A stretch of 33,550 nt of DNA, taken from a virus. Of this stretch, positions 1-29,743 are shown piece after piece. The notes under the pieces were generated by a model. The model ran no database searches and was not told the DNA's origin. It worked only from the letters and a program-made list of their open reading frames with translations. The position numbers were made by a program, and so were the translations under genes. Position 1 is the first letter of the stretch, and each line of letters begins with the position of its first letter. Where the stretch lies: positions 1 through 33,550 of the IMG/VR virus record IMGVR_UViG_3300013120_000374; one strand, given 5' to 3'.

Positions 1-300
1 AAGGGCGAGGACTTGTCGGAGGGGGATCCGGAGCGGGCCAAGGCGGCTATCAAGGCTACTTCGGCGGCGAAGCGGGTCCGGCGCGAATTGGGGTTGCCGG
101 AGGAGGTGCTGACGGAGGGGTGTGCTTGTCAGCGGGGGATGATGCATCGGCTTGGTGAGAGTGGGGTGACGCTGGTGCCTTGTCCGTTCTGTCAGGACGG
201 GTTGCAGGCGATGGTTCGGGCGGCGGTTGACAAGCGGTTGCCGGCGGTGGAGTGGTATCGGGAACACGTGGAGCTCGCGGGGTTCGGAGGTACGTCGTGA
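1..300 (+). CDS. Partial small Cys-motif protein, 5' end outside window
   Basis: The reading frame is open from the first base, so the true start is probably outside the window; an internal TTG at 13 would give 95 residues. The middle carries a C-x-C pair (CACQRG) and a C-x-x-C pair (CPFC) about 22 residues apart, which looks like a small zinc-binding knuckle. The N-terminal part is Lys/Arg-rich and probably helical. Its TGA (298-300) overlaps the GTG start of the next gene at 297, so the two are translationally coupled. I do not recognise the family. Small zinc-knuckle proteins are common in phage early regions, and DNA or RNA binding would be a guess. Confidence 0.55.
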   Translation, partial: KGEDLSEGDPERAKAAIKATSAAKRVRRELGLPEEVLTEGCACQRGMMHRLGESGVTLVPCPFCQDGLQAMVRAAVDKRLPAVEWYREHVELAGFGGTS

Positions 301-3171: not shown

Positions 3172-4159
3172 GCTGAAGGTGATTGTGCTTGGTGCTGGCG
3201 ATCGGGGGGCGGTGCATGTGAAGGGGTGGCAGGCGATGCCGAATGCCCGGATTGTGGGCATTGTGGACTCGGTGGTGTCGAAGGCGTCGATGTTGGCGCT
3301 TGGGTGCCGCTGCCAGTGCTGGGGGGAGAGTTGGCGGAAGGCGCTGGACCAGTGGGCGGCGGACGTGGTGTCTATCGCGCTGCCGACGTCGGAGCATGTG
3401 CCGGCGATTCGTTGGGCGTTCCGGCGGGGGATGGACGTGTTCTGTGAGAAGCCGCTGTCGCAGACCTCCGGGGACGTCCTGAGGGTGATCGAGGAGAAGG
3501 AACGCAAGCTCGCGGTGTGCTTCCAGCTCCGGGCGATGCGGGTGTATGAGGAGGTGCGGGACATCCTGGCGGAAGAAGTCGGGCGGCCGTTCATGATGAT
3601 CACCCACGACTTCCGGGAGATCCGGCCGAAGATAGCAATGCACGATCCGCACGTGAACGGCGGCCCGATCGTGGATTGTTGGTGCCACCAGGTGGATCTG
3701 ATGCGATGGTTCACGGGGTGCGAGCCGGAGTCGGTGTATGCGCAGGGCTATCGATGGGCGCAGGGACACCAGTCCCTGGAGAAGATCGAGGTACTTGCCC
3801 ACGATTCGGCGACGGTCACGGCGGTGTTCACGGATGGCTCGACACTCCAGAGCAACATGAGTTGGGGGCTGCCGAAGACGGTGGATCATGAGGTGGCTTC
3901 GCCGGTGTTCGTTGGGCCGGGCGGGGTGATGGAGATTGGCGAGAACATCATCTACGTCAACAGCCAACGGGCCGCAGAGCCCATGCAAGTGCCACACATC
4001 ACGTCGGATGCGGCGACCTACAACTTGATTCAGCGCTTCGCGCGCGTTGTCCGCGGCGAGAGCCAACCGAATGACTCGGCTTGGTCGGCTTACATGGCGC
4101 AGCGGGCTTCGTTGGCGGCGCTTCGATCTATTGATACGGGGGAGGTTGAGCGGATTTGA
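3164..4159 (+). CDS. Gfo/Idh/MocA-family sugar oxidoreductase
   Basis: A protein of 331 residues, the usual family size. The N-terminal Rossmann domain shows the dinucleotide-binding loop G10-A-G12-D-R-G15 and then the family hallmark E95-K96-P97 (FCEKPLS), in which the Lys is catalytic. The C-terminal alpha/beta domain has GGPIVDCWCHQVDLMRWF, the family's G-G-x-hydrophobic-x-D-x-x-x-H-x-x-D-hydrophobic pattern whose His and Asp line the active site. Such enzymes oxidise or reduce pyranose or cyclitol rings with NAD(P), often in nucleotide-sugar or inositol pathways. ATG 3164 lets the sequence begin MNELKVIVLGAG, ideal for the first strand. The gene is chained by overlap to the zinc-ribbon gene before it and the ASCH gene after it. 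The substrate is unknown; a nucleotide sugar would fit the other sugar genes here. Confidence 0.82.
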   Translation: MNELKVIVLGAGDRGAVHVKGWQAMPNARIVGIVDSVVSKASMLALGCRCQCWGESWRKALDQWAADVVSIALPTSEHVPAIRWAFRRGMDVFCEKPLSQTSGDVLRVIEEKERKLAVCFQLRAMRVYEEVRDILAEEVGRPFMMITHDFREIRPKIAMHDPHVNGGPIVDCWCHQVDLMRWFTGCEPESVYAQGYRWAQGHQSLEKIEVLAHDSATVTAVFTDGSTLQSNMSWGLPKTVDHEVASPVFVGPGGVMEIGENIIYVNSQRAAEPMQVPHITSDAATYNLIQRFARVVRGESQPNDSAWSAYMAQRASLAALRSIDTGEVERI

Positions 4160-4282
4160 AGGCGCTGACGATCATTGAACCGTGGGCTTCTCTCATTGTG
4201 TATGGGGCCAAGCGCTACGAGACTCGCTCGTGGTCGACGAAGTACCGCGGCCCGCTGGCGGTCCATGGGGGAGCCAGGCGAG

Positions 4283-4310
4283 TTCTGATGAGGTTGGGAA
4301 GTGGTATAAT
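4283..4310 (+). promoter_or_regulatory. Extended -10 promoter upstream of RNA element copy 1
   Basis: TATAAT at 4305-4310 is preceded by TGG, so it is a perfect TGn-extended -10. A weak -35-like TTCTGA lies at 4283-4288 with a 16-bp spacer. A start at about 4317 would put the first conserved base of the RNA (4321) near the 5' end of the transcript. Exact TATAAT is rare in DNA this GC-rich. The only other one I noticed lies upstream of the second copy of the same element. Confidence 0.6.
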
Positions 4311-4320
4311 TGGGAGTACA

Positions 4321-4402
4321 GCCCACGACGGCATCAACGCCCAGGCAATCCGCACGAGGCAAGTGCTCGTGCGGGGTGTCTGGGCGTTTTGCGTTGTAGG
4401 GC
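4321..4402 (+). ncRNA. Structured RNA element, copy 1
   Basis: Three nested helices can be drawn. P1 pairs GCCCACGAC (4321-4329) with GTTGTAGGGC (4393-4402), with one bulged A and one G-U. P2 pairs AACGCCCAG (4336-4344) with CTGGGCGTT (4380-4388). P3 pairs CCGCACGAG (4350-4358) with CTCGTGCGG (4366-4374) over a 7-nt loop. Bases 4321-4347 are identical to 15129-15155, and TCTGGGCGTTT is shared with 15194-15204. P3 differs completely in sequence between the copies yet both pair perfectly. The distance between the conserved arms differs by 7 nt, so no reading frame is conserved and selection appears to act on the RNA. I cannot assign a known family. Whether it acts in trans or on the downstream membrane-protein gene (4468) is open. 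Confidence 0.7.
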
Positions 4403-4450
4403 ATTGCCAATTGCGAATTGGCAATTGCCAACTGGCAATTGGGAATGCCT
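4401..4450 (+). repeat. AATTGGC/GCCAATT palindromic word repeat
   Basis: Alternating CCAATTG, GAATTGG, CAATTGCC and GGCAATTGGG words form overlapping palindromes immediately 3' of RNA element copy 1 and just before the RBS of the 4468 gene. A related repeat occurs at 13436-13474. It is markedly AT-rich against its surroundings and could fold into a short hairpin. Confidence 0.75.
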
Positions 4451-4467
4451 TCGTAGGGAGGTAAGTC

Positions 4468-4725
4468 ATGGAAGTCACGACAGCCAGACCTCCAAGGGAT
4501 GAAGGGTGCCGGCCGATTGGCGGCACGGTTCTGACAGGCGGCCCATTGCCACCGTTGGGACTGCCGCCGGGGTCGGTTCGGGCCATCGCTCTCCTGTTGA
4601 TAGCGATTACGCTTTGCATCTCGGTACTGAAGGGCATCGAGCCGCCGCAGTGGATGCTGGCGATCTTTGGGGCGCAGATCGGGGAGTATGTGAGCCGGCG
4701 CGGGAACGGGGGGCCGCCGCAATGA
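4468..4725 (+). CDS. Small membrane protein, possible holin
   Basis: A protein of 85 residues with a strong RBS (GGGAGGTAAGTC before the ATG). A Pro/Gly-rich N-terminal third is followed by one clear membrane segment (VRAIALLLIAITLCISVL, residues about 38-55) and a weaker hydrophobic stretch (WMLAIFGAQIGEYV), ending in a short basic tail (SRRGNGG). Size, topology and position next to a second membrane protein suggest a holin or holin partner. No family signature proves it; a generic phage inner-membrane protein is the alternative. Confidence 0.5.
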   Translation: MEVTTARPPRDEGCRPIGGTVLTGGPLPPLGLPPGSVRAIALLLIAITLCISVLKGIEPPQWMLAIFGAQIGEYVSRRGNGGPPQ

Positions 4726-5155: not shown

Positions 5156-5947
5156 ATGGCTGCGAAGGCGAAGGCAAAGACCAAAAGGACTGCAGGGACC
5201 TCAAAGACGCTGAAGGAGCGGCAGCGGGCGGCCGGCAATGCTGTTCGGGAGCATCCGGAGGCGGATCGGAAGGGGAAGCCGAATACGCAGGGGGTTTCGT
5301 TGGCTCCGGTCGACACGACAGAGGTCACGGAGGCGCTCGAGGCGGTCATTGGGGACGGCGCGCACTGGTTGCTCGACACGGGGTGCTCTATCTGCGGTCT
5401 GTTGTGGGACAAGCCGGATGAGTTCGTGAAGGTGAACCAGATGCTGACGGCCCGCAAGGGGGAGCGGCCGACACAGGGAGCGGTTGAGCAGTATGTGAAG
5501 GGACTTGGCGTGCCGTGCGGCACGAGCACGATTCGACGGCACCGGACGCACATGAAGGAGGTCGGCTTCTGGACGGCGTTGTTAGGGAAGAACGCGGAGC
5601 GGCTGATTGAGGAGTCGAAGCGGGTCGCTGGCGGGAAGGCGCCGGAGTTGATCCGGGTGCTGTGCGAGAACCTCCTTATGAAGCTGCTCGTCAAGGCGAA
5701 CTCCGGGAAGGCGGCCAAGGAGCAGCTTGGCATCGCGAGCCTGGCGCTGCGGTACCTGACGGCGGCGCCGCGGTCGGAGCTGACGGAAGCGAAGGTGTCG
5801 CAGGAGAAGCGGAAGCAGGCGGGCGTCGACGCGATGGTGGAGGCGCGGGCCGGCATGGAAGTTGCTTCGCGACTGGAGTCTCTGCGGGGGAAGATGCCGG
5901 ACGATCAGATTGAGATGGTTCGTGAGGCGTTGAGCAGCGGTGACTGA
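5156..5947 (+). CDS. Putative small terminase subunit (gp27 position)
   Basis: A protein of 263 residues. ATG 5156 is preferred because AGGTGA lies 6 nt upstream; a GTG at 5153 is the alternative. The N terminus is very basic (AAKAKAKTKRTAG, then KTLKERQRAAG), followed by a segment with CSICGLLW, a helix-turn-helix-like stretch with STIRRHRTHMKEVGF, and a long helical C-terminal half. It overlaps the large terminase start by 8 nt. In Mu-like phages the gene in this position (gp27, DUF3486) is the small terminase, which recognises the packaging site. The helical, basic composition fits that role, but I see no decisive motif, so the call rests mainly on position. Confidence 0.5.
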   Translation: MAAKAKAKTKRTAGTSKTLKERQRAAGNAVREHPEADRKGKPNTQGVSLAPVDTTEVTEALEAVIGDGAHWLLDTGCSICGLLWDKPDEFVKVNQMLTARKGERPTQGAVEQYVKGLGVPCGTSTIRRHRTHMKEVGFWTALLGKNAERLIEESKRVAGGKAPELIRVLCENLLMKLLVKANSGKAAKEQLGIASLALRYLTAAPRSELTEAKVSQEKRKQAGVDAMVEARAGMEVASRLESLRGKMPDDQIEMVREALSSGD

Positions 5948-7691
5948 CACCTTCGGAGAACAGATCGCCGGCAAGCGGATGGTCGCTGTGGAGCGGCCCA
6001 CCGCCGAGGGCCTGCGGGAGTGGGTCCACGCGAACGCGCGTCCGCGGGGGAAGCCGTGGTCGTTTGAGCGGTATGAGTACCTCGAGGAGCCGCTGCTCTG
6101 GTGTGGTGAGTGGGAGGCGATTCGGGCTTCGACGCAGGTGGGCAAGTCGACGGCGGTTGAGCTGCAGATGCTGTACGTGGCGGCGCCGGGGAACCGGGTG
6201 GGGTACTACCTGCCGACCAAGGTCGACGTTCGGGACCACGTGCAGAACCACGTCGACCCGCTGATTGATGATTCGGAGTCGCTGACGAAACTCGCGGTGG
6301 GTTGGCAGGAGGTCAAGCAGGAGATTCGGCGGCGGAAACAACGGCCGGACAATGTGCTGTTGCTGAAGTTCGGGAACGGGTGGATCCACTACCGCGGCCT
6401 TCAGGACATGAAGGAAGCGAAGCGGACGCCGATGGATATGGTGATTGTCGACGAGGCGTCGGAGATCGCCCACATCACGGATGCGGAGACGGGCGTACAG
6501 CACCGGGACATGCTCATCGGCCGGATGGAGGCGAGTGAGCTTCAGTGGTGGCGGGAGACTTCGCAGACGGAGCTTGAAGACGAAGGTATCGATGCGACGT
6601 ACAAGGAGGGCAGCCAGGCGAGCTACCGCTGTCGGTGTCGCCGCTGCCGGACGTGGGTCGACCTCGGGATGACGTGGCCGGAGTGTGTGATGGGCCGGCA
6701 TGGCGATGGGCGGCTTGTGTCGGGTGCGGAACTCGAACGTGGGGTGGCGTGGCCGGATTGCGAGGAATGGTTCTACACTTGCCCGCGCTGCCGGAATGCG
6801 TCGGGGCCCGCGCGAATCACGTTGCCGCGGATGGGCGACAATGAATGGGCTTGGCAGCACGACAAGCCGACGCTGCGGGAGTCGAAACCCTCCTATTGGA
6901 TCTGCGGACTATACGGCCCGCAGATGACGCCGGAAAAGGCGGCGCGGCGGTGGCATGGGGCGCAGAAGGATGATGAGAGCCTGTGCGTGTTCTACTGGAT
7001 CACGCTGGGACGTCCGCGGAACGGGAGGCGCAAGCCGTTGACGGAAGAGCGGCTGCGGTTCGGCGACTTCCGTTGGTACCCGAAGCCGATTCCGGGGCAG
7101 CCAGTGGCGGTCGGTATCGACATCGGCGACTTGTTCCACTGCGTCGCCAACATGTATCACCCGGACCTCGGTTGGATCCTCGCGAACGTCCTCGAGACAG
7201 ATGAAGAGGAAGAGGCAGAGCGGTGGATGCGTGTGTGGGAGGGGCCCACGATCATTGACGCGCGCCCGGAGAAGCACACGGCCGTTCGCTTAGCGCGGCG
7301 CGTGGGCGGCCGGCACGTCGCGGTGCTCTACACGCACGACGGGCAGCGAGGGAACATCGAGGAAGGGGACTTCAAGGGGATCCGGACGGTCTCCATGTCG
7401 CGGGAGTGGGTGATCGATGAGGGCGTGCACTTCATCGAGTCGGACTTGCTCCTCCCGCCGAAGCGGTGGAAGAACGTCCCCACGGTGTGCCAGCACTTCA
7501 CGAGCTTCAAGCGGCAGAAGACTGACAAGGGGCTGTTCCGGTGGGCGCACGTGGACCACTACGGGATGGCTGAATGCCACGCGAAGGTGGCGATCGATCA
7601 TGGTACGGAGCTGCGCCTTGTGAAGCCGAAGCCGATGACCGACCCGAAGGACTACGCAGCCGGCGAGAAGATGAGCGTGACGGAGTGGTAA
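5940..7691 (+). CDS. terL: Phage terminase large subunit (gpA-like)
   Basis: A protein of 583 residues that pumps DNA into the prohead by ATP hydrolysis and cuts it with a C-terminal nuclease. Seen: a Walker A-like S64-T-Q-V-G-K69-S-T loop after the Trp-rich adenine-binding region (LEEPLLWCGEWEAIRAS); Walker B VIVDEA with D171 and E172; a coupling Ser/Thr motif in WWRETSQTE; and zinc-binding-like cysteines C231/C233/C236 and C281/C284 between the ATPase and nuclease. The nuclease opens with VAVGIDIGD (D394), the first metal-binding Asp of the RNase H fold. The S-T-Q-V-G-K-S form and inserted cysteines are typical of gpA-type terminases. The GTG start overlaps the preceding gene. Confidence 0.9.
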   Translation: MTDTFGEQIAGKRMVAVERPTAEGLREWVHANARPRGKPWSFERYEYLEEPLLWCGEWEAIRASTQVGKSTAVELQMLYVAAPGNRVGYYLPTKVDVRDHVQNHVDPLIDDSESLTKLAVGWQEVKQEIRRRKQRPDNVLLLKFGNGWIHYRGLQDMKEAKRTPMDMVIVDEASEIAHITDAETGVQHRDMLIGRMEASELQWWRETSQTELEDEGIDATYKEGSQASYRCRCRRCRTWVDLGMTWPECVMGRHGDGRLVSGAELERGVAWPDCEEWFYTCPRCRNASGPARITLPRMGDNEWAWQHDKPTLRESKPSYWICGLYGPQMTPEKAARRWHGAQKDDESLCVFYWITLGRPRNGRRKPLTEERLRFGDFRWYPKPIPGQPVAVGIDIGDLFHCVANMYHPDLGWILANVLETDEEEEAERWMRVWEGPTIIDARPEKHTAVRLARRVGGRHVAVLYTHDGQRGNIEEGDFKGIRTVSMSREWVIDEGVHFIESDLLLPPKRWKNVPTVCQHFTSFKRQKTDKGLFRWAHVDHYGMAECHAKVAIDHGTELRLVKPKPMTDPKDYAAGEKMSVTEW

Positions 7692-13256: not shown

Positions 13257-13691
13257 ATGCGATTGGCGCACATGATGGAGGAAGGCGGAATCTCGGTTCG
13301 TGAGGTGGCGCGTCGGGCAGAGGTGAATCCGGGTAGCGTGTCGGCAGTTGTGCGGCGACAGTCCGGGCAAGGTGGGCACCAAGTGTCGCGGGCGGCGCGG
13401 GGCAGAGTGGTCGGGACCGTGCTCGCGATGTATCGGCAATTGTCAATTGCCAATAGTCAATTGCCAATTGCCAATGACCCGGACCTTGACCCGATGCGGA
13501 AGTGCCTCGAGTGCCGGCAGCCGTATGAAGAGCAGGCGGATGGCGTGATCGTGTGCGGGTGTGAAGGGGCAGAGAGGTTTCCGGCAGGCAAGGGCTTGTC
13601 CGCAGATTGCGCGGATTCCGCAGATGGCTTGCGGGAGGCGTTCATGGGCGTTCTACGGCGCCGAGCGCAGGAGCTGACGGCGAATGCCTGA
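13257..13691 (+). CDS. HTH protein with C-terminal zinc-knuckle motif
   Basis: A protein of 144 residues. ATG 13257 is chosen because GGAGG lies upstream at a good distance and the helix-turn-helix begins immediately: HMMEEGGISVREVARRAEVNPGSVSAVVRR, in two parts, is a well-formed XRE/homeodomain-like HTH. The C-terminal half has CLEC and CGC (residues about 82-101), a likely zinc knuckle. Between and after these lie two segments encoded by DNA word repeats: QLSIANSQLPIAN (AATTGCC repeat) and LSADCADSADG (CGCAGATT repeat). They look like absorbed filler acting as linkers. A DNA-binding regulator or packaging/head-assembly accessory factor is plausible. Confidence 0.5.
   Translation: MRLAHMMEEGGISVREVARRAEVNPGSVSAVVRRQSGQGGHQVSRAARGRVVGTVLAMYRQLSIANSQLPIANDPDLDPMRKCLECRQPYEEQADGVIVCGCEGAERFPAGKGLSADCADSADGLREAFMGVLRRRAQELTANA
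13436..13474 (+). repeat. AATTGCC/CAATTG word repeat inside a coding frame
   Basis: About five overlapping CAATTG or AATTGCCAAT words occur in a row and are translated as SIANSQLPIAN in the 13257 gene. Same vocabulary as the repeat at 4401-4450. Confidence 0.72.
13597..13628 (+). repeat. CGCAGATT/CGCGGATT word repeat inside a coding frame
   Basis: CCGCAGATT-GCGCGGATT-CCGCAGATGG encodes the SADCADSADG segment near the end of the 13257 gene. The same words recur at about 8978-8993 in the portal gene (KSADSAEEE). Confidence 0.7.
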
Positions 13692-14841: not shown

Positions 14842-15119
14842 GTGTGATTGGCGCGCAAGGAATCGAGAAGGATACGGTGGCGGTTCTGTTCGTCGACCGC
14901 GCGGAGCCGCCGGTGCGTCAGCGGGTGAAGTTGACGCGACACGGGAAGCTGGCCTTTATAGAAGGTACGCCGGAGGGGCTGGCAGAGGAGATCCTCGCCG
15001 CGGTGTCGAAGGCCGACCTCAACAAGCGGAAGCAGACAGTAGACGGCTTCAGCATCGAGATTCTGTGGTATAATCCTCAACAGAAGACCTACGAGGAATC
15101 CGGGGCCGCTGACAACTAA
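14838..15119 (+). CDS. Hypothetical protein upstream of RNA element copy 2
   Basis: A protein of 93 residues coupled by an ATGA overlap to the MuF-zincin gene. It has an alternating beta pattern (TVAVLFVDRAEPPVRQRVKL, then HGKLAFIEGTPEG), a helix (LAEEILAAVSKADLNKRK) and a final strand (FSIEILWYN). The last 17 codons include the TATAAT promoter of RNA element copy 2. Being downstream of and coupled to a peptidase gene, it could be an inhibitor or partner of the zincin, but this is speculation from position only. Family not recognised. Confidence 0.5.
   Translation: MSVIGAQGIEKDTVAVLFVDRAEPPVRQRVKLTRHGKLAFIEGTPEGLAEEILAAVSKADLNKRKQTVDGFSIEILWYNPQQKTYEESGAADN
15046..15074 (+). promoter_or_regulatory. 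Extended -10 promoter upstream of RNA element copy 2
   Basis: TATAAT at 15069-15074 is preceded by TGG, the same extended -10 (GTGGTATAAT, 10 of 10 bases) as at 4301-4310. The -35 region is not recognisable. A start near 15081 would give a ~48-nt leader before the conserved RNA core at 15129, longer than at copy 1. Confidence 0.55.
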
Positions 15120-15128
15120 CATCCGACC

Positions 15129-15216
15129 GCCCACGACGGCATCAACGCCCAGGCAGTTCCGGAACTCAACTCGCAGAGGTGAGTTCCAGAAGGTCTGGGC
15201 GTTTCGCATGTATGGC
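15129..15216 (+). ncRNA. Structured RNA element, copy 2
   Basis: Bases 15129-15155 are identical to 4321-4347. P2 is AACGCCCAG (15143-15151) with CTGGGCGTT (15195-15203), as in copy 1. P3 is replaced by an unrelated but perfect stem, GGAACTCA (15161-15168) with TGAGTTCC (15180-15187), capped by a mini-stem CTC-GCA-GAG. P1 is weaker than in copy 1: GCC/GGC plus ACG/UGU around an internal loop, although the 3' sequence still aligns (GCATGTATGGCAT against GCGTTGTAGGGCAT). The 3' side overlaps the first start codons of the gpG-like gene (15208, 15220), neither of which has a clear Shine-Dalgarno, so a cis role in translation is possible. A separate small RNA from the upstream promoter is the alternative. 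Confidence 0.7.
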
Positions 15217-15696
15217 ATGGCCGTCAAACTCAGTGGTCCGGTGCAGCTCCAGGAGACCTTCCGGGATGTGCTGGTGGACAAGCCGCGCGATCTGACGCCG
15301 GTGTGGGCTCGGATCACGATGGACTTCTACGGCATCGAGGCGGAGGTCTATGCGGCGCAGGGGGCGGCTCACGGCGGGACGAAGTGGCCGGAGCTCTCTG
15401 AGCAATACGCGGCCTGGAAGGCGAAGCACTTCCCTGGCGCGCAGATTGGCGTCCTCACCGGGATGACCCGCGAGGCGCTGACGGGACCAGGGGCGGCTTC
15501 CATCGTCGAGATGAGCCCGCAGCGGCTCGCATTGGGCGCAAGCTGGCAGCGCGGCGAGTGGGACATTCCGGGACTGCTGGACACGGGCACGGAGAAGATG
15601 CCCGCGCGCGACCCGATCCCCTCTATGCTTGGCTCCACGAAGAGCCGTTGGGTGGGCTGGATTGGTGACCATCTTATGGAGGAGGTGGCGGCGTGA
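15208..15696 (+). CDS. Mu gpG-like virion morphogenesis protein
   Basis: A protein of 162 residues from ATG 15208, or 158 from ATG 15220 (MAVKLSG). No Shine-Dalgarno precedes either, because the conserved RNA structure occupies that space; the frame is also open upstream without a standard start codon. The central part shows the family pattern: GGTKWPELSEQYAAWKAK, then IGVLTGMTREALTG, as in W-x-x-L-S-x-x-Y-x-x-x-K ... L-x-x-T-G-x-L. Mu gpG and relatives act in late head or tail-joining assembly. It lies between MuF and the protease gene exactly as in Mu. The C terminus overlaps the GTG of the next gene. Confidence 0.72.
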   Translation: MYGMAVKLSGPVQLQETFRDVLVDKPRDLTPVWARITMDFYGIEAEVYAAQGAAHGGTKWPELSEQYAAWKAKHFPGAQIGVLTGMTREALTGPGAASIVEMSPQRLALGASWQRGEWDIPGLLDTGTEKMPARDPIPSMLGSTKSRWVGWIGDHLMEEVAA

Positions 15697-16718
15697 GTGA
15701 TCGGACGATGGTTACCTTCTCCGAGGTTCTGTCCGAGGAGAACTGGATCCAAGTGCTGCCCCTCGGTGAGTGGATGTACCCGACGTGGGACGGGATGAAG
15801 GACATCCTGGTCGACGAGCGGATGCTGACGGACTTCGTGGCGAACTTCGACGGCGGCGTGGCCGGCAAGCCGCTGCCGGTGGACGCCGAGCACCGGTACG
15901 ATGCCGAAGGCGCCCATGGATGGATTGAGGAACTGCAGGCGCGGGACGCCGGGCTGTTCGCCCGGGTGGAGTGGACGGACCGGGGAAAGACCGCGATCGA
16001 GAACAAGCGATTCCGGTTTGTGAGCTCGGAGTTCGCGGAGAAGTACCGCAACAACAAGGGCAAGCTGCACCGGAATGTGTTTCTGGGCGCCGGGCTGACG
16101 GTTCGGCCCTTCATCAAGACGGACGAGCTCGAGGAGCTGCCTCAGCCCGTGCAGGCAAGCGAGGGGCTCTTCATCACCTGCCGGGAACCCGCCGGCGATC
16201 CAAGTGAGGGAGCGACGCAGGAGGCAATTGACATGGACGAACTGCAGAAGCTACGCGGGGAACTAACTGGGCAGATTGATGGGCTGCGCGAAGCGGCCGA
16301 GGCGAAGGACGGCCAGATCACCGAGCTGAACGATCAGCTCACGGCCCTGACCGCCGAACGCGATCAGGCTGCCACCGAGCTTGGCGAGGTCCGCCTCCGC
16401 GAGCAGCGGGCCGAGATCGAGACGCAGCTCGGCGAGAAGCCGTTCCCAGAGGCTCACCTGAAGCGCTTCGCCGATCTGCTCATGCGGGTCGAGGACGTCG
16501 AGCTTCGTGGCGAACTGGCGGACGCGATCGCGCAGGTCGAGATCGTGGACACCGAGGAGCGTGGCTTTACCCCCGACCCGAAGAGGGGCGGCGACAAGTT
16601 CTCCGACGCGGACCGGAAGCGGGCTCGCGAGCTCGGCATCACCGAGGAAGACCTCGAGAAGTACGGCGGCGAAGTTCCGGACTTCGTTTCGGACGGCGAC
16701 GATGACGACGAAGAGTGA
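15693..16718 (+). CDS. Mu I-like prohead protease fused to scaffold
   Basis: A protein of 341 residues; GTG start with GGAGGAGG 7 nt upstream. The N-terminal ~170 residues are the Mu-like protease: LPVDAEHRYDAEGAHGWIEEL places His67 in the D-x-x-H ... A-x-G-W context of the family, and FRFVSSEF gives the nucleophile candidates Ser111/Ser112. The second half is a scaffold: a long coiled coil (LQKLRGELTGQIDGLREAAE onward, residues about 180-250) and an acidic tail (DGDDDDEE). In Mu the full-length I protein digests scaffold during prohead maturation. An in-frame internal start at 16233 would make the scaffold alone. Confidence 0.85.
   Translation: MSDRTMVTFSEVLSEENWIQVLPLGEWMYPTWDGMKDILVDERMLTDFVANFDGGVAGKPLPVDAEHRYDAEGAHGWIEELQARDAGLFARVEWTDRGKTAIENKRFRFVSSEFAEKYRNNKGKLHRNVFLGAGLTVRPFIKTDELEELPQPVQASEGLFITCREPAGDPSEGATQEAIDMDELQKLRGELTGQIDGLREAAEAKDGQITELNDQLTALTAERDQAATELGEVRLREQRAEIETQLGEKPFPEAHLKRFADLLMRVEDVELRGELADAIAQVEIVDTEERGFTPDPKRGGDKFSDADRKRARELGITEEDLEKYGGEVPDFVSDGDDDDEE
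16233..16718 (+). CDS. Nested in-frame scaffold protein (Z-like)
   Basis: An internal ATG in the same frame as the protease, with a perfect AGGAGG at 16219-16224 and an 8-nt spacer. The product would be 161 residues, starting MDELQKLRGEL and holding only the coiled coil and the acidic C terminus. Mu makes I and Z this way, and lambda C/Nu3 is analogous: the short form is abundant scaffold and the long form the protease. The strong internal RBS is seen directly; translation is inferred. Confidence 0.7.
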   Translation: MDELQKLRGELTGQIDGLREAAEAKDGQITELNDQLTALTAERDQAATELGEVRLREQRAEIETQLGEKPFPEAHLKRFADLLMRVEDVELRGELADAIAQVEIVDTEERGFTPDPKRGGDKFSDADRKRARELGITEEDLEKYGGEVPDFVSDGDDDDEE

Positions 16719-17309: not shown

Positions 17310-18251
17310 ATGGCACGAGAATTGATCCAGACCCGCGTGGCGTCCTACTCGAAGACGTTCAAGGCGATGTTCCTCAAGTCGTATTGGGACGAAACGCCCG
17401 AGTTGGACAACCTGGTCACGTTCGTGACCTACACGGGCTCCGAATCGGAGCTGCAGGTCCCCGGCGCTCCACCGTACATGGAGGAGTGGCTGTCGGAACT
17501 GCAACACCAGAGGGTGTCGGCGACCCCATACACGATCAAGGATCGTCGGTGGGGCAAGGCGCTGGACATCCCGGTGTCGGCATTCGAGGATGACAACCTC
17601 GGGCTGTATCCGGCGAGCATCCAGACGTTTGGCCAGAACGCGCGGAACGCACCCGGAGATCTGGTGTGCGAGTTGATGCGTGATGGCGGGTCCACGACCT
17701 GCTATGACGGGCAGTACTTCTTCGACACGGACCATTCCGAGGGCGACAGCGGAACCCTCAACAACATCATCACTGGCACGGTCGACACGGGCTACACGCT
17801 CTCCACGTTCAAGAACGACTGGATGAGCGCGTGGGATCGGATGCAGACGTGGAAAAACGACCGCGGCAAGGCAATGCGGGGAATCTCCCCGGACACAATA
17901 GTGGTTCCCTCTGGGCTCGCGTCGCTGGCAATCGAGTTCGCCGGCGCGATGATGCTCTCCAGTACCACGAACGTGTGGGTGCCGAAGATCCGGAACGTGA
18001 TCTGCAATCCGGACCTGACGGACGTGAACGACTGGTACGCCTTCTGCACCACGAAGCCGATCAAGCCCTTCATCGTGGCGAAGCACAAGAACTATCCGGT
18101 GCCGAAGATCAGTGCTCGGATCAGCACCGACTCCGATGTTGTGTTCGAGGAAGACGTGTACTCCTGGCGGGCCAAATCCCGGCACAACGCCGGATATGGT
18201 CCGTGGCAGCTCGGGATCAAGGTCAGCAATTCCGGCTCATACACTCACTGA
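17310..18251 (+). CDS. Mu gpT-like major capsid protein
   Basis: A protein of 313 residues, the normal size for Mu gpT. It self-assembles into the HK97-fold shell. Diagnostic segments: KTFKAMFLKSYWDETPELDN at the N terminus; YMEEWLSEL with VSATPYTIKDRRWGKALDIP; FEDDNLGLYPASIQTFGQNA; LMRDGGSTTCYDGQYFFDTD (residues ~124-142), the conserved C-Y-D-G-Q-x-F-F-D-T-D-H block; and C-terminal TDSDVVFEEDVYSWRAKSRHNAGYGPW. The RBS GGAAGGGAAG stands before ATG 17310. Codon choice is more C-balanced than in most of the window, as expected for a highly expressed gene or one of different ancestry. Confidence 0.92.
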   Translation: MARELIQTRVASYSKTFKAMFLKSYWDETPELDNLVTFVTYTGSESELQVPGAPPYMEEWLSELQHQRVSATPYTIKDRRWGKALDIPVSAFEDDNLGLYPASIQTFGQNARNAPGDLVCELMRDGGSTTCYDGQYFFDTDHSEGDSGTLNNIITGTVDTGYTLSTFKNDWMSAWDRMQTWKNDRGKAMRGISPDTIVVPSGLASLAIEFAGAMMLSSTTNVWVPKIRNVICNPDLTDVNDWYAFCTTKPIKPFIVAKHKNYPVPKISARISTDSDVVFEEDVYSWRAKSRHNAGYGPWQLGIKVSNSGSYTH

Positions 18252-20444: not shown

Positions 20445-20752
20445 AAGTGAAAGAGCAAGTGAAAGTGGCAGACCAGGGCCAGGGCAAGGCTCTGACCGGG
20501 AAGCTCATCATCGACATGAGGCGGCGCATCACTGCGCTGAAGGTGAACGACGCCGACTGCGTGCAGCTCCACGACGGGGATCCTGTGGCGGTGCTGGATG
20601 AGGGGGGCAAGGTGGCCCACATCGTGAGCGACCGGAAGCCGCTGGCTCTACGGGGGACGCTCTGTGTTATGTGGGATCGAGATGCCGTTGGCGTGCTGGT
20701 TGGCGATCAGCTCTGCCCATTGGCCGGTGGTGAAGCTCTGCGAGCCGGGTGA
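20441..20752 (+). CDS. Hypothetical protein with repeat-derived start
   Basis: A protein of 103 residues beginning at a GTG that overlaps the previous TGA; AAGGAG lies about 10 nt upstream. The first residues (KVKEQVKVADQGQG) come from a GTGAAAGTG word repeat (20441-20468). The rest alternates beta strands and turns (LIIDMRRRITALKVNDADCVQLHDGDPVAV in two parts; KVAHIVSDRKPLAL; AVGVLVGDQLCPL), resembling a small beta-barrel. Family not recognised. It is followed by the endolysin. Confidence 0.45.
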   Translation: MKVKEQVKVADQGQGKALTGKLIIDMRRRITALKVNDADCVQLHDGDPVAVLDEGGKVAHIVSDRKPLALRGTLCVMWDRDAVGVLVGDQLCPLAGGEALRAG

Positions 20753-20753
20753 G

Positions 20754-21245
20754 ATGATGAATGAGCCCAAACGGCTGCAACTGAATCATGAGCGGCTTCA
20801 GTGGCTGCACCCGACGATCAAGCCGAAGGTGCACGCTGTGCTGACCGATCTGCAGGGGCATGGGTTGCGGCCGGTGCTGGCCTCGAGCACGTTCCGGACG
20901 CCAGCGGAGCAACGGCGACTGAAGGCACAGGGGCGGTCGAAGGTGTCGTGGAGCTTCCACTGCGCGCGGATGAATGGACGGCCGGCGGCGTTGGCGGCGG
21001 ACATTGTGGAGGCGGACATGGGCTGGGGGGCGCCGCGGAAGTTCTGGTTGATGCTCGGCTCGTCGGCGACGGCCCATGGGATGCAGTGGGGTGGGTTCTG
21101 GGGGCTGCGGTTGTGGCAGCGGCGGCGCGTTCGGCGGCTGTGGAAGCATGGGGCTTGGAACAGTTCTGTTGCGCTGGGCTGGGATCCGGCGCACATTCAG
21201 ACGGCGAAGTTCTCGTTGCGTAAGGCGCGGAGGTTGTTCGGATGA
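20754..21245 (+). CDS. M15-family (VanY-like) peptidoglycan peptidase, endolysin
   Basis: A protein of 163 residues. VHAVLTDLQGHGLRPVLASSTFRTPAEQ is the M15 lead-in, in which an R-(S/T) element is followed by the zinc site. The ligands are His69 in SFHC, Asp83 in AALAADIV, and His147 in WDPAHIQ, the conserved W-D-P-x-H that closes VanY-like sites. H69 and D83 are separated by 14 residues rather than the usual ~7, an insertion of NGRP type in the loop. The C-terminal region is very basic (RLWQRRRVRRLWKH). Such enzymes cleave stem-peptide bonds and serve as phage endolysins. ATG 20754 is taken, with GGGTGAG upstream. Confidence 0.75.
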   Translation: MMNEPKRLQLNHERLQWLHPTIKPKVHAVLTDLQGHGLRPVLASSTFRTPAEQRRLKAQGRSKVSWSFHCARMNGRPAALAADIVEADMGWGAPRKFWLMLGSSATAHGMQWGGFWGLRLWQRRRVRRLWKHGAWNSSVALGWDPAHIQTAKFSLRKARRLFG

Positions 21246-26210: not shown

Positions 26211-28132
26211 TGCTACGCTTCCTCATCCACGAGCCATGGAGCTCCGGCCGGGATCGCATCTGCGATGTTACCCACCGCTTGGCGACTGCCGAGTTCGAGC
26301 TGAAGGACGCGGGCAACTGGGTTGGGCTTGCATCGTTCACGCTGGATCCGGATGCTCAGCTCGCACCGATGCCGGCGATTGAGGACGGGGATGAGGTCGA
26401 CGTCGTTGATGACTCGGACGGGACGATCTGGTGGCGAGGGGTGATTGCGAAGACGGTTCGGGATCTGATTCAGGAGGAGCTGACTTCGTTCCAGGCGATC
26501 GGGCTGGGGGAGCTGTTGGGCACTACGCCAATCGACGCGGACCGATCGGTGTCGGGTGGGGCGGAGGAGTTCAAGCTGCTATTCGAGTGGGCGGTGAAGT
26601 CGGCTTCGCGGGTGAACCGCAGGCTGGCGGACATCACGGTGAGCTCGTCCAACGTGGGGCATACGTATGAGGAGTTCGATGCTCGATCGCAGACGCTCCA
26701 ACAGGTGATTGAGCGTATCGTGCGGGCGACGGATGGGGTGACGTACTGGCGGGTGTATGACAACTCGGGCACGGAGACGTTCGAGTTGGCGCAGCGGGAC
26801 ACGGCGACGTTCTACCCGGTTCAGGTCCGCGATGTGGAGCGCTTGGACTGGACGAAGGACGCGCGAAACTTATTCAACATCGTCCTGGTAGTGCTGCAGT
26901 CGGGAGACCGGCCGACGTCGCGGGTGGTGGATCAGTCGTTTGAGGACGTCGAGGGCGACGATTACAAGCAGTGGTCGCTCAACGGGGCGAACATCTCGCT
27001 GTCGGTGTCGTCGGGCGAGGCGATCGGGCTCCACGGGCTGAGGTGTGCCCATGTGACGACCACGGCGGGCTTCGCGGCGAATGCGTATCTTCACACTGCC
27101 GACCCGACGCAGTTCGACGGGGTGTCGGGCTATACGTTCCAGGTGTGGGCCCGCAACACGGGGGCGGGGTCGAAGGACTTCAAGTTCTTCACGGCAGACC
27201 CTACCTGGGGAGCGATAGGGGTTAGCCCGGCTGCGCACACGATCACGAATGACGGGCGTTGGCGCCTATTCACGGAGACGTGGGGGGCGGGGACGGGCGG
27301 GCAGTACTTCGTTGGCATCCAGTTCTTCCAGGCGGGGGCGTCGGAGCTGCAGTTCGACGGGTTCCGGTGGCTGCCGCCAGGATACGGGTCGGACCTGGTG
27401 GAGGTGGCGCAGGCGCTGGAGATGGGCGGGGCGGATGGGATTCCGTTGGTGCCCGGGTGCTCGCTCCTTCAGGCGGAGGCGTGGGGGGTGTGCACGGCTA
27501 CGGAGGTTACGGACGGGTCGGGCGGCACGCGGGTGTACACGGAGAACATTGACTGGACCGCTCTCGGCTTGGGCACGGGGCAGACGGTGAACTTCTTCGG
27601 CTTCAACCAGAGCAGCGTTGCGACCACGATCAAGGCGTGGGGGAACGGCTTCTTCGACGCGACGTTGGCGCCGGGCTCGATGCCTTCGCCGTTGGCGGGG
27701 CATTGCTACCTCATCGAGGGCGTGCCGGTTCCGGAGACGGGGTTCAGTGAGGATTCGGAGGAGGCGAGCTCGATCACGCGGTTTGGTCCGCGGGTCAAGG
27801 TGATCGCGTTCCCGGAGGGGCGCGATAGTGTCGAGGCGGAGAGGCTGGCCATCGGCTACCTGACGAGCTACTCCACACCCCAGCAGACGGTGGAGTGCCA
27901 GCTCACGACCCGGCAGGAAGATCCGTGGTACGTGGAGCCCGGGCGCATGTTGCGCGTGCTGGGTACGGACGAAACGATTGAGGACCTGGCAGTCACGACG
28001 GTGCGCTGCCGGGTGGCCAGCGGGAACATCGAGCAGACGATCTATGCGGGCTCGGAGCCGGCGCGGCTGACAAGTGTGGTGCGGGGTGTGGCGGAGACCA
28101 CGGGGCAGATGATCGTGCGGAACAAGAGGTGA
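26210..28132 (+). CDS. Tail hub/baseplate protein with an inserted jelly-roll domain
   Basis: A protein of 640 residues. Its ATG shares a base with the methyltransferase stop. N terminus: strands typical of phage hub proteins (ATAEFELKDAGNWVGLASFTL, DEVDVVDDSDGTIWWRGVIAKT), then helices with YEEFDARSQTLQQVIERIV, as in gpD/gp44-like hub rings. Residues about 240-386 are a complete CBM4/9-like jelly roll: DQSFEDVEGDDYKQWSL, LRCAHVTTTAGFAANAYL, GVSGYTFQVWARNTG, WRLFTETWG, QYFVGIQFFQAG, LQFDGFRWL. The hub resumes after a second small beta domain (~400-490) with ARLAIGYLTS-like sequence (AERLAIGYLTSYSTPQQTVECQL) and WYVEPGRMLRVLG. The inserted module likely binds host glycan at the tail tip. Confidence 0.65.
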   Translation: MLRFLIHEPWSSGRDRICDVTHRLATAEFELKDAGNWVGLASFTLDPDAQLAPMPAIEDGDEVDVVDDSDGTIWWRGVIAKTVRDLIQEELTSFQAIGLGELLGTTPIDADRSVSGGAEEFKLLFEWAVKSASRVNRRLADITVSSSNVGHTYEEFDARSQTLQQVIERIVRATDGVTYWRVYDNSGTETFELAQRDTATFYPVQVRDVERLDWTKDARNLFNIVLVVLQSGDRPTSRVVDQSFEDVEGDDYKQWSLNGANISLSVSSGEAIGLHGLRCAHVTTTAGFAANAYLHTADPTQFDGVSGYTFQVWARNTGAGSKDFKFFTADPTWGAIGVSPAAHTITNDGRWRLFTETWGAGTGGQYFVGIQFFQAGASELQFDGFRWLPPGYGSDLVEVAQALEMGGADGIPLVPGCSLLQAEAWGVCTATEVTDGSGGTRVYTENIDWTALGLGTGQTVNFFGFNQSSVATTIKAWGNGFFDATLAPGSMPSPLAGHCYLIEGVPVPETGFSEDSEEASSITRFGPRVKVIAFPEGRDSVEAERLAIGYLTSYSTPQQTVECQLTTRQEDPWYVEPGRMLRVLGTDETIEDLAVTTVRCRVASGNIEQTIYAGSEPARLTSVVRGVAETTGQMIVRNKR

Positions 28133-28973: not shown

Positions 28974-29070
28974 CGGCGCGGTGGTGCCGATGTGCACCAA
29001 TGCGTTTGGCCCCTGGGAGTACTGAGCTGGTACCGCGCCGCCGGCCGACTCCCGGGGGCTTCTTTCTTTC
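28974..29070 (+). terminator. Terminator-like hairpin with a competing upstream pairing (possible attenuator)
   Basis: GCCCCTGGGAGT (29009-29020) pairs with ACTCCCGGGGGC (29048-29059; 12 bp, one G-U) and is followed by the T-rich TTCTTTCTTTC, the form of an intrinsic terminator with a 27-nt loop. CGGCGCGGT (28974-28982) is perfectly complementary to ACCGCGCCG (29032-29040) inside that loop, so the two stems interlock: either a pseudoknot or mutually exclusive terminator and antiterminator states. It lies directly before the first accessory methyltransferase gene. The 130-nt gap has no convincing coding sequence. Confidence 0.6.
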
Positions 29071-29095
29071 AGATCATTGCGGGTGGCGCAATTCA

Positions 29096-29743
29096 ATGAA
29101 ACTGCTGAACATTGAAATAGTGGAGAAGGTCCTCGAGGGCGAGCGGTTTGCTGCGAGCCATGGGGCGGAGGAGAGCGGCTACCAGGGAGCGGGGATGCTG
29201 TACTTCGTGCTGCCGTATCTGCTACGGGCCCGGACGTGTGTCTGCCTCGGCTCGGGTTCGGGGTATGTGCCGAAGTGGATGAGCCTGGGGCAGCAGGCGG
29301 CGGGAGTGTCGCCGCGGCGGACGGTGCTCGTCGACGCGAACAAGCCCGGAGCAGGGGGCGGTCGACCGGACTACTTCCTGGGCGACCTCGAGGAGCACGT
29401 GGACTGCCCGTTCCGCCGGAGCTTCCCGGAAGTCGAGATCGTCGAGGGGACGTGGGAGGCGTTCTGGGAGCTGTTCCCCAGGGGCGAGCACGGGACGCCG
29501 ATAGACTACCTGCACATTGACGCGGACCATCGGTGGGAGTACGTCGCCTCCGACTTCTGGGCGGCGCAGGGATGGCTGCGGGTGGGGTCGGTGGTGACGC
29601 TGCACGACTCGAAACACAGATGCTACGGGGTGCGTGACCTGGTGGCGTGTATCCGGCGGATGCCGGGGCACTTTGAGGTGATGGACTTCCCGGTGAGGCA
29701 TGGGGTGGCGGTGGTTCGGGTGATCAAGGATGTGGCTGCGTGA
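29096..29743 (+). CDS. Class I SAM-dependent methyltransferase-like protein
   Basis: A protein of 215 residues. CVCLGSGSGYVPKWM at residues ~49-63 is a Rossmann motif I (G-x-G-x-G); TVLVDANKPG is the end of strand 2; PIDYLHIDADHRWEYV, with the D-A-D-H block, is the metal/substrate region of cephalosporin-hydroxylase/Methyltransf_24-like enzymes, followed by GSVVTLHDSKH and GVRDLVACI. The family often methylates sugars or amino sugars. ATG 29096 comes shortly after the terminator-like hairpin; the longer frame from 28970 would include that hairpin and is rejected. No strong RBS is visible. It interrupts the chaperone-tape measure pair. Confidence 0.68.
   Translation: MKLLNIEIVEKVLEGERFAASHGAEESGYQGAGMLYFVLPYLLRARTCVCLGSGSGYVPKWMSLGQQAAGVSPRRTVLVDANKPGAGGGRPDYFLGDLEEHVDCPFRRSFPEVEIVEGTWEAFWELFPRGEHGTPIDYLHIDADHRWEYVASDFWAAQGWLRVGSVVTLHDSKHRCYGVRDLVACIRRMPGHFEVMDFPVRHGVAVVRVIKDVAA

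Follow-up and report, generated by a model that had tools for sequence, protein, structure and literature searches.

Two copies of a repeated RNA element in the virus record IMGVR_UViG_3300013120_000374, which was analyzed over its whole length of 33,550 bases (the window), are probably promoter-proximal attenuators, in which a factor acting in trans would lock an upper hairpin, similar in working to RAT and ANTAR targets (probability about 0.62). Each copy comprises an upper hairpin and a terminator-like hairpin, both of which covary at five sites in two phages and exclude each other.

Copies of the element in two Mu-like phages

The late gene order of the window is Mu-like (Gam-like, gp27-like, terminase, portal, Mu F-like, protease, capsid, and tape measure genes). 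Three further IMG/VR contigs are 100% identical around the repeats and represent the same virus. The relative IMGVR_UViG_3300009128_000088 (31 kb, hereafter G001; coordinates are given on its reverse complement) has a DNA identity of about 73–86% (~80%) in the larger shared blocks. Both copies are present in G001 at syntenic positions, together with a third copy at about 26,561–26,640, which was the next best match of a model built without it (E about 2e-4). The window lacks the third copy; the corresponding part of G001 is an insertion of roughly 540 bp (window site 29061–29102), which carries copy 3 and a small HTH_3 regulator gene encoding 73 amino acids. The sites are designated w1 and w2 (copies 1 and 2 of the window) and g1, g2, and g3 (G001). 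All covariation counts given below refer to these five sites from only two genomes, of which w1 and w2 are nearly identical in the upper-hairpin stretch. The latter two are also more alike than either is to its own orthologue in G001.

The initial annotation had reported positions 4321–4347 to be identical to 15129–15155, which was confirmed; the repeat reaches 29 of 30 bases over 4318–4347/15126–15155. Compared to shuffled sequences, the folding stability corresponds to z = −9.1 for copy 1 and −5.1 for copy 2. When all 90-nt stretches of the contig were compared with adjustment for composition, the two copies ranked first and second in stability.

All features of the window copies described here are located on the plus strand. 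A TATAAT box had been noted upstream of both copies, and (G)TGGTATAAT indeed precedes each of them. These extended −10 boxes resemble sigma-70 promoters, from which we infer promoter activity. The box of copy 1 (4302–4310) is found at the same intergenic place in G001. The box of copy 2 (15066–15074) lies within the 3′ end of the upstream gene and is kept in G001, but the surrounding coding stretch is conserved, and the conservation of the box could be due to coding. At g3, the box is TGCTATCAT. The sequence TGNTATAAT occurs twice in the window (0.12 occurrences expected), both times upstream of element copies, and twice in G001, upstream of copies 1 and 2, respectively. The −10 box is separated from the outer stem of the upper hairpin by 10 nt at w1 and g1 and by 67 nt at g3, whereas the distance for copy 2 differs between the phages (54 nt at w2, 101 nt at g2).

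The terminator-like hairpin

The basal helix P2 was described as identical in both copies, and this holds: the 5′ arm AACGCCCAG (4336–4344 and 15144–15152), which is shared with the upper hairpin, pairs with the 3′ arm CTGGGCGTT (4380–4388 and 15195–15203). Including the U run, the 3′ segment covers 4380–4390 in copy 1 and, with a short U run, 15195–15204 in copy 2. The apical hairpin P3 is unrelated in sequence and yet paired in both copies, as stated before, with 9 bp in copy 1 (4350–4374; 4350–4358/4366–4374) and 8 bp in copy 2 (15161–15187; 15161–15168/15180–15187). Between the P2 arms lie 35 nt in copy 1 and 42 nt in copy 2; the difference of 7 agrees with the earlier statement that it is not a multiple of 3.

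Across the five sites, the arms follow the pattern AAC-X′-nAG/CUn-X-GUU and are paired in 45 of 45 cells (nine of nine basal pairs at each site), with four of the nine pairs changed on both sides. The arms of g3 are AACGGUUAG/CUAACCGUUUUUUU. At all sites, P2 carries a second hairpin on top, the sequence of which is unrelated, and 3–7 U follow; in the window, these runs are short (4 U in copy 1 and 3 U in copy 2). Two G–U pairs in P2 on the plus strand correspond to A–C on the opposite strand, which argues that the element acts as RNA and on the coding strand. As in regulated intrinsic terminators, a G+C-rich hairpin is followed by a U run. P2/P3 was missed by a consensus terminator scanner because the loop limit of this scanner is 8 nt. 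Judged by its sequence, P2/P3 is an intrinsic-terminator-like hairpin, at which transcription would be terminated.

Of the P1–P3 model proposed in the initial annotation, P2/P3 could be retained as a terminator-like hairpin. P1 of copy 1 (GCCC…GGGC), whose 3′ strand lies 3′ of P2, is not kept at the other sites and was discarded, and a second, overlapping hairpin had been missed. The more general proposal, that an RNA structure under selection is preceded by a promoter-like box of its own, is supported. The case named as counter-evidence in the initial annotation, homologues keeping a reading frame without the pairing, was not observed: the relatives keep the pairing, and lengths shift by non-multiples of 3. 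A protein reading of the repeat (HDGINAQA…VWAF) was rejected, since a degenerate pattern of it gave no further matches and the arms are out of frame in copy 2.

The upper hairpin

Rather than serving as a linear tag, the 27 identical bases form this second hairpin, which overlaps P2. In copy 1 (4321–4346), it consists of an outer stem (4321–4323/4344–4346), an internal loop with CACGAC (4324–4329) opposite CA (4342–4343), an inner stem (4330–4332/4339–4341), and the hexaloop ATCAAC (4333–4338). Copy 2 (15129–15154) has the outer stem 15129–15131/15152–15154, the same internal loop (CACGAC/CA), the inner stem 15138–15140/15147–15149, and the hexaloop 15141–15146. The consensus of the five sites is an outer stem of 3–7 bp, one asymmetric internal loop CRCGAC/NA, an inner stem of 3 bp, and the hexaloop AUNRAC, with a total length of 26–34 nt. 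Among the unpaired bases, the internal loop keeps C.CGAC and the A on its opposite side at every site, and the hexaloop keeps AU..AC.

The pairing was identified in a register scan, in which the CC of CCRCGAC was set to offset 0, the alignment was gap-free up to offset 24, and 261 registers were scored for 3-nt complementarity. Just two registers pair at all five sites; all others pair at no more than two of the five. The inner register (7–9:16–18) is GGC/GCC at three sites, CCG/CGG at one, and ACC/GGU at one; the outer register (−2..0:21..23) is GCC/GGC at two sites and ACC/GGU, UCC/GGA, and GUC/GAC at one site each. Both registers nest and give one hairpin. Watson–Crick pairs are found in 30 of 30 cells, and compensatory changes in five of the six pairs. 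None of 500 shuffles reached the covariation score of the upper hairpin, and the signal collapses when the alignment is slid. When columns were shuffled (20,000 runs), at least one such register was obtained in 221 runs and two in none.

Mutual exclusion of the two hairpins and the proposed switch

At all five sites, the terminator uses the 3′ half of the upper hairpin as its 5′ arm. The two structures are therefore mutually exclusive, and an alternative, covarying hairpin is incompatible with the terminator at every copy. In leaders truncated before the 3′ arm of the terminator (RNAfold, unconstrained), the upper hairpin is the minimum free energy (MFE) structure at w1, w2, g2, and g3, and pair probabilities of 0.64–0.98 were obtained for it. 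Site g1 favors a shifted outer stem; the difference between its outer stem and its nascent MFE structure counts against the attenuator reading. For the complete leader, RNAfold favors the terminator by about 12–22 kcal/mol. Folding and the shared arm together indicate that X′ can pair with the preceding or the following X. Between w2 and g2, X differs, and all three segments have changed together.

In the proposed mechanism, the host RNA polymerase would initiate at the extended −10 box and produce a short leader, in which the upper hairpin would fold first. Without stabilization, transcription of the 3′ arm would allow the much more stable P2/P3 to invade, and the U run would halt transcription. 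A common trans factor, most likely an RNA-binding protein of the phage or the host, might read the invariant bases of the internal and apical loops. The locked upper hairpin would shorten P2 and detach it from the U run, and the downstream operon would be transcribed. We infer both this factor and the direction of control.

The element may represent an undescribed class of antiterminator RNA, for which we see slightly less than an even chance: one phage factor or ligand would read the CRCGAC/NA plus AUNRAC hairpin and free several operons together, and late timing would be set by termination at each operon, without an activator or processive antitermination. The usual explanations of late control in phages are an activator (Mu C), processive antitermination (lambda Q), or a phage polymerase. 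A switch based on hairpin exclusion, repeated in front of several operons of the same phage and of the type known from bacterial sugar or ethanolamine genes, would solve the task in another way. The compact motif, with stems of 3 bp, offers an exact target for testing and a handle on the candidate factor.

Placement of the copies and alternative explanations

The first complete gene after copy 1 (4468–4725) encodes a small hydrophobic, possibly holin-like protein without a family match. It is followed by a Mu gp27-like gene (23.8 bits, below the family cutoff) and the gene of the terminase large subunit (5940–7691). The gene after copy 2 (15208–15696), also without a family match, occupies the position of Mu gene G and is followed by a Mu-like protease (15693–16718) and a capsid protein gene (17310–18251). 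In copy 2, the last U of the run is at 15204 and the ATG follows 4 nt later, at 15208; copy 2 abuts the start codon and is therefore located inside a leader and not at the end of an operon. No clear Shine–Dalgarno sequence was detected before this gene, and the corresponding ATG in G001 is likewise close behind the U run. All five copies are oriented into the downstream gene and precede head or packaging operons and, in one case, a regulator gene. By sequence, they are positioned between promoter and gene, with the boxes upstream and the start codons downstream. The initial annotation had left the function open between a small RNA, a cis-regulator, and a processing or packaging signal; among these, attenuation or antitermination in cis fits better than packaging or processing.

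This arrangement makes it unlikely that the copies form a family of trans-acting small RNAs of about 75–90 nt with their own promoter and terminator, whose loops bind a target or protein and for which the downstream genes are incidental. Copy 1 is a compact promoter–RNA–terminator unit, unpaired bases are conserved, and several copies occur per phage, as such a family might display. However, the orientation toward a downstream gene is the same in all five copies, the 4 nt between copy 2 and the start codon leave no space for another promoter, and the terminator would consume the conserved hairpin in the finished RNA, so that the loops would not be displayed.

Conserved bases in internal and apical loops, within covarying stems that overlap a terminator, would also suit a riboswitch for a metabolite or ion, with the upper hairpin as aptamer and the same competition between terminator and antiterminator over the late genes. 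We regard this as rather improbable for a hairpin of just 26–34 nt with a single asymmetric internal loop and without a match in Rfam, and the use before structural operons of a phage suggests a phage-specific signal.

Strong hairpins, located close to the putative 5′ end in copy 1 and immediately ahead of a start codon in copy 2, might stabilize or process the late leaders, as an RNase site or by 5′ protection, or copy 2 might be a protein-bound translational operator, in either case without regulated termination. Such functions leave the three-way complementarity X–X′–X and the universal U run unexplained and appear quite improbable.

Very improbable is the interpretation as plain intrinsic terminators of the preceding units, with upstream conservation due to recent duplication or gene conversion. 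The terminator-like character of P2/P3 agrees with it, and gene conversion would be expected to render the window copies closer to each other than to their orthologues, as observed. Duplication would not explain, however, that the pairing was kept although X (GGC, CCG, ACC) and the outer stem (GCC, ACC, UCC, GUC) changed, and copy 2 as an operon end would cut off the next gene.

A small mobile or recombination element (a REP/MITE-like hairpin or an attC-like site) is hardly credible: there are several intergenic copies with a conserved foot and a variable apical palindrome, but their orientation is constant, a promoter-like box and a U run are always present, both loci are kept in two diverged phages, no copy was detected in 2.9 million other viral contigs (tailored patterns) or in genome contigs (narrower pattern), and the G–U pairs and the one-sided U run favor RNA. 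For an attC site, the flanking bases also misfit the recombination-box consensus by inspection.

Comparison with known leader elements

The attenuator reading can be compared with systems in which phages open genes through antitermination at sites in the leader, as in lambda N/nut, lambda Q, and HK022 put. The put site occurs twice per genome, as do the copies in the window. Lambda N, Q, and put modify RNA polymerase processively and without overlap with a terminator, whereas the hairpin described here is part of the terminator.

In described attenuation systems under protein control, a stabilized antiterminator hairpin overlaps the 5′ arm of the terminator, shortens it, and parts it from the U tract (PMC3369936). 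The mini-hairpins of ANTAR targets have hexaloops and stems of at least 3 bp (PMC3369931). The phage element resembles the ANTAR-target leaders of eut, nas, and ami (PMC3369931; PMC3369936) in its mini-hairpin of at least 3 bp, its hexaloop beginning with A, and a 3′ strand shared in part with the 5′ arm of the terminator; the presence of more than one such leader in a genome, here under a putative common factor, is a further likeness. ANTAR targets consist of two tandem hexaloop hairpins, whereas the phage element is a single hairpin that includes an outer stem and a 6/2 internal loop. A would-be second hairpin (−2..0/7..9) pairs at only two of the five sites; just one hexaloop hairpin is conserved. 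The overlap of the second ANTAR hairpin with the terminator 5′ arm has its counterpart here. Of the loop bases A1 and G4, A1 is found at five of five sites and G4 at one (position 4 is otherwise A). Unlike the ANTAR-target leaders, the element stands in late leaders of phages.

Like RAT, the target of BglG, SacY, and LicT, the element is one hairpin that contains an asymmetric internal loop, excludes a terminator, and presumably needs stabilization by a protein. It is set apart by description, since the RAT stem has two asymmetric internal loops (PMC3369936) and the phage hairpin one. Neither an ANTAR domain nor a CAT domain (CAT_RBD) was found on the window contig or G001, both of which are fragments without the early region; the putative regulator is either missing from them or escapes recognition. 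By analogy, the element may work like ANTAR and RAT targets, although membership in either class is not shown.

Copies 1 and 2 precede packaging and head genes, at positions that roughly correspond to those of Plys and PI in Mu (PMC4461284). Initiation at the late promoters lys, I, P, and mom of Mu is activated by C (PMC4461284), whereas sigma-70 extended −10-like boxes and a conserved element in the transcript are found here. The endolysin-like gene of the window, however, is located elsewhere (20664–21245).

Distribution of the element

Rfam 15, a check that had been proposed initially, yielded no match at gathering score in the window; low-threshold matches around copies 1 and 3 were far below the cutoffs. 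With tailored patterns, no copies were detected in 2.9 million other viral contigs outside these two phages. Genome contigs were scanned with a narrower pattern, which copy-3-like sites would escape; it gave 37 matches. Full P2 pairing was seen in two of these, which read as a fortuitous match in coding sequence and a terminator matched by chance. A loose P2-only pattern retrieved 71 viral stretches, of which all outside this phage group were unrelated. The loose pattern also caught a different repeat, TTTTATAAAACGCCCAG…CTGGGCGTTCTAAAAAGG with a variable middle, in many unrelated large viral contigs (L008–L073).

Among 79 loci of Mu-like phages gathered via the capsid protein, the upper-hairpin model found no copy (best match 18.6 bits, compared to 37–43 bits for true sites). 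Matches in 772 genomes of two phyla and 14 others reached at most 34 bits; all 13 from the two phyla were rejected, as they are situated in long frames without a promoter box or terminator. Full pairing, promoter box, and terminator were lacking in the matches to unrelated sequences. Neither a terminase search for hosts nor a DNA search of cultured phages and plasmids returned relevant matches.

Further observations on the contig

The ASCH-domain gene at 4156–4464 is intact in G001. In the window, about 320 bp are deleted from its interior (junction near 4267/4268) and one base is added, so that what is left of the frame extends across copy 1; this open frame was accordingly dismissed as a by-product of the deletion. 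A hairpin at 29009–29062 is also found in G001 (reverse complement, 26318 onward). Its outer stem is GCCCCTGGGAGT/ACTCCCGGGGGC versus GCCCCTCCGGAGT/ACTCCGGAGGGGC with the pairing kept, and the inner ACTGAGCYGGTACCGCGCCGCCGGCC is nearly unchanged and followed by CTTTCTT; this structure is terminator-like with a conserved head. Palindromic AATTGCCAATTGGC arrays are located at 4400–4449 and 13439–13475 and are mutually inverted. A perfect tandem duplication of 25 bp (2639–2688) lies near the end of the Gam-like gene.
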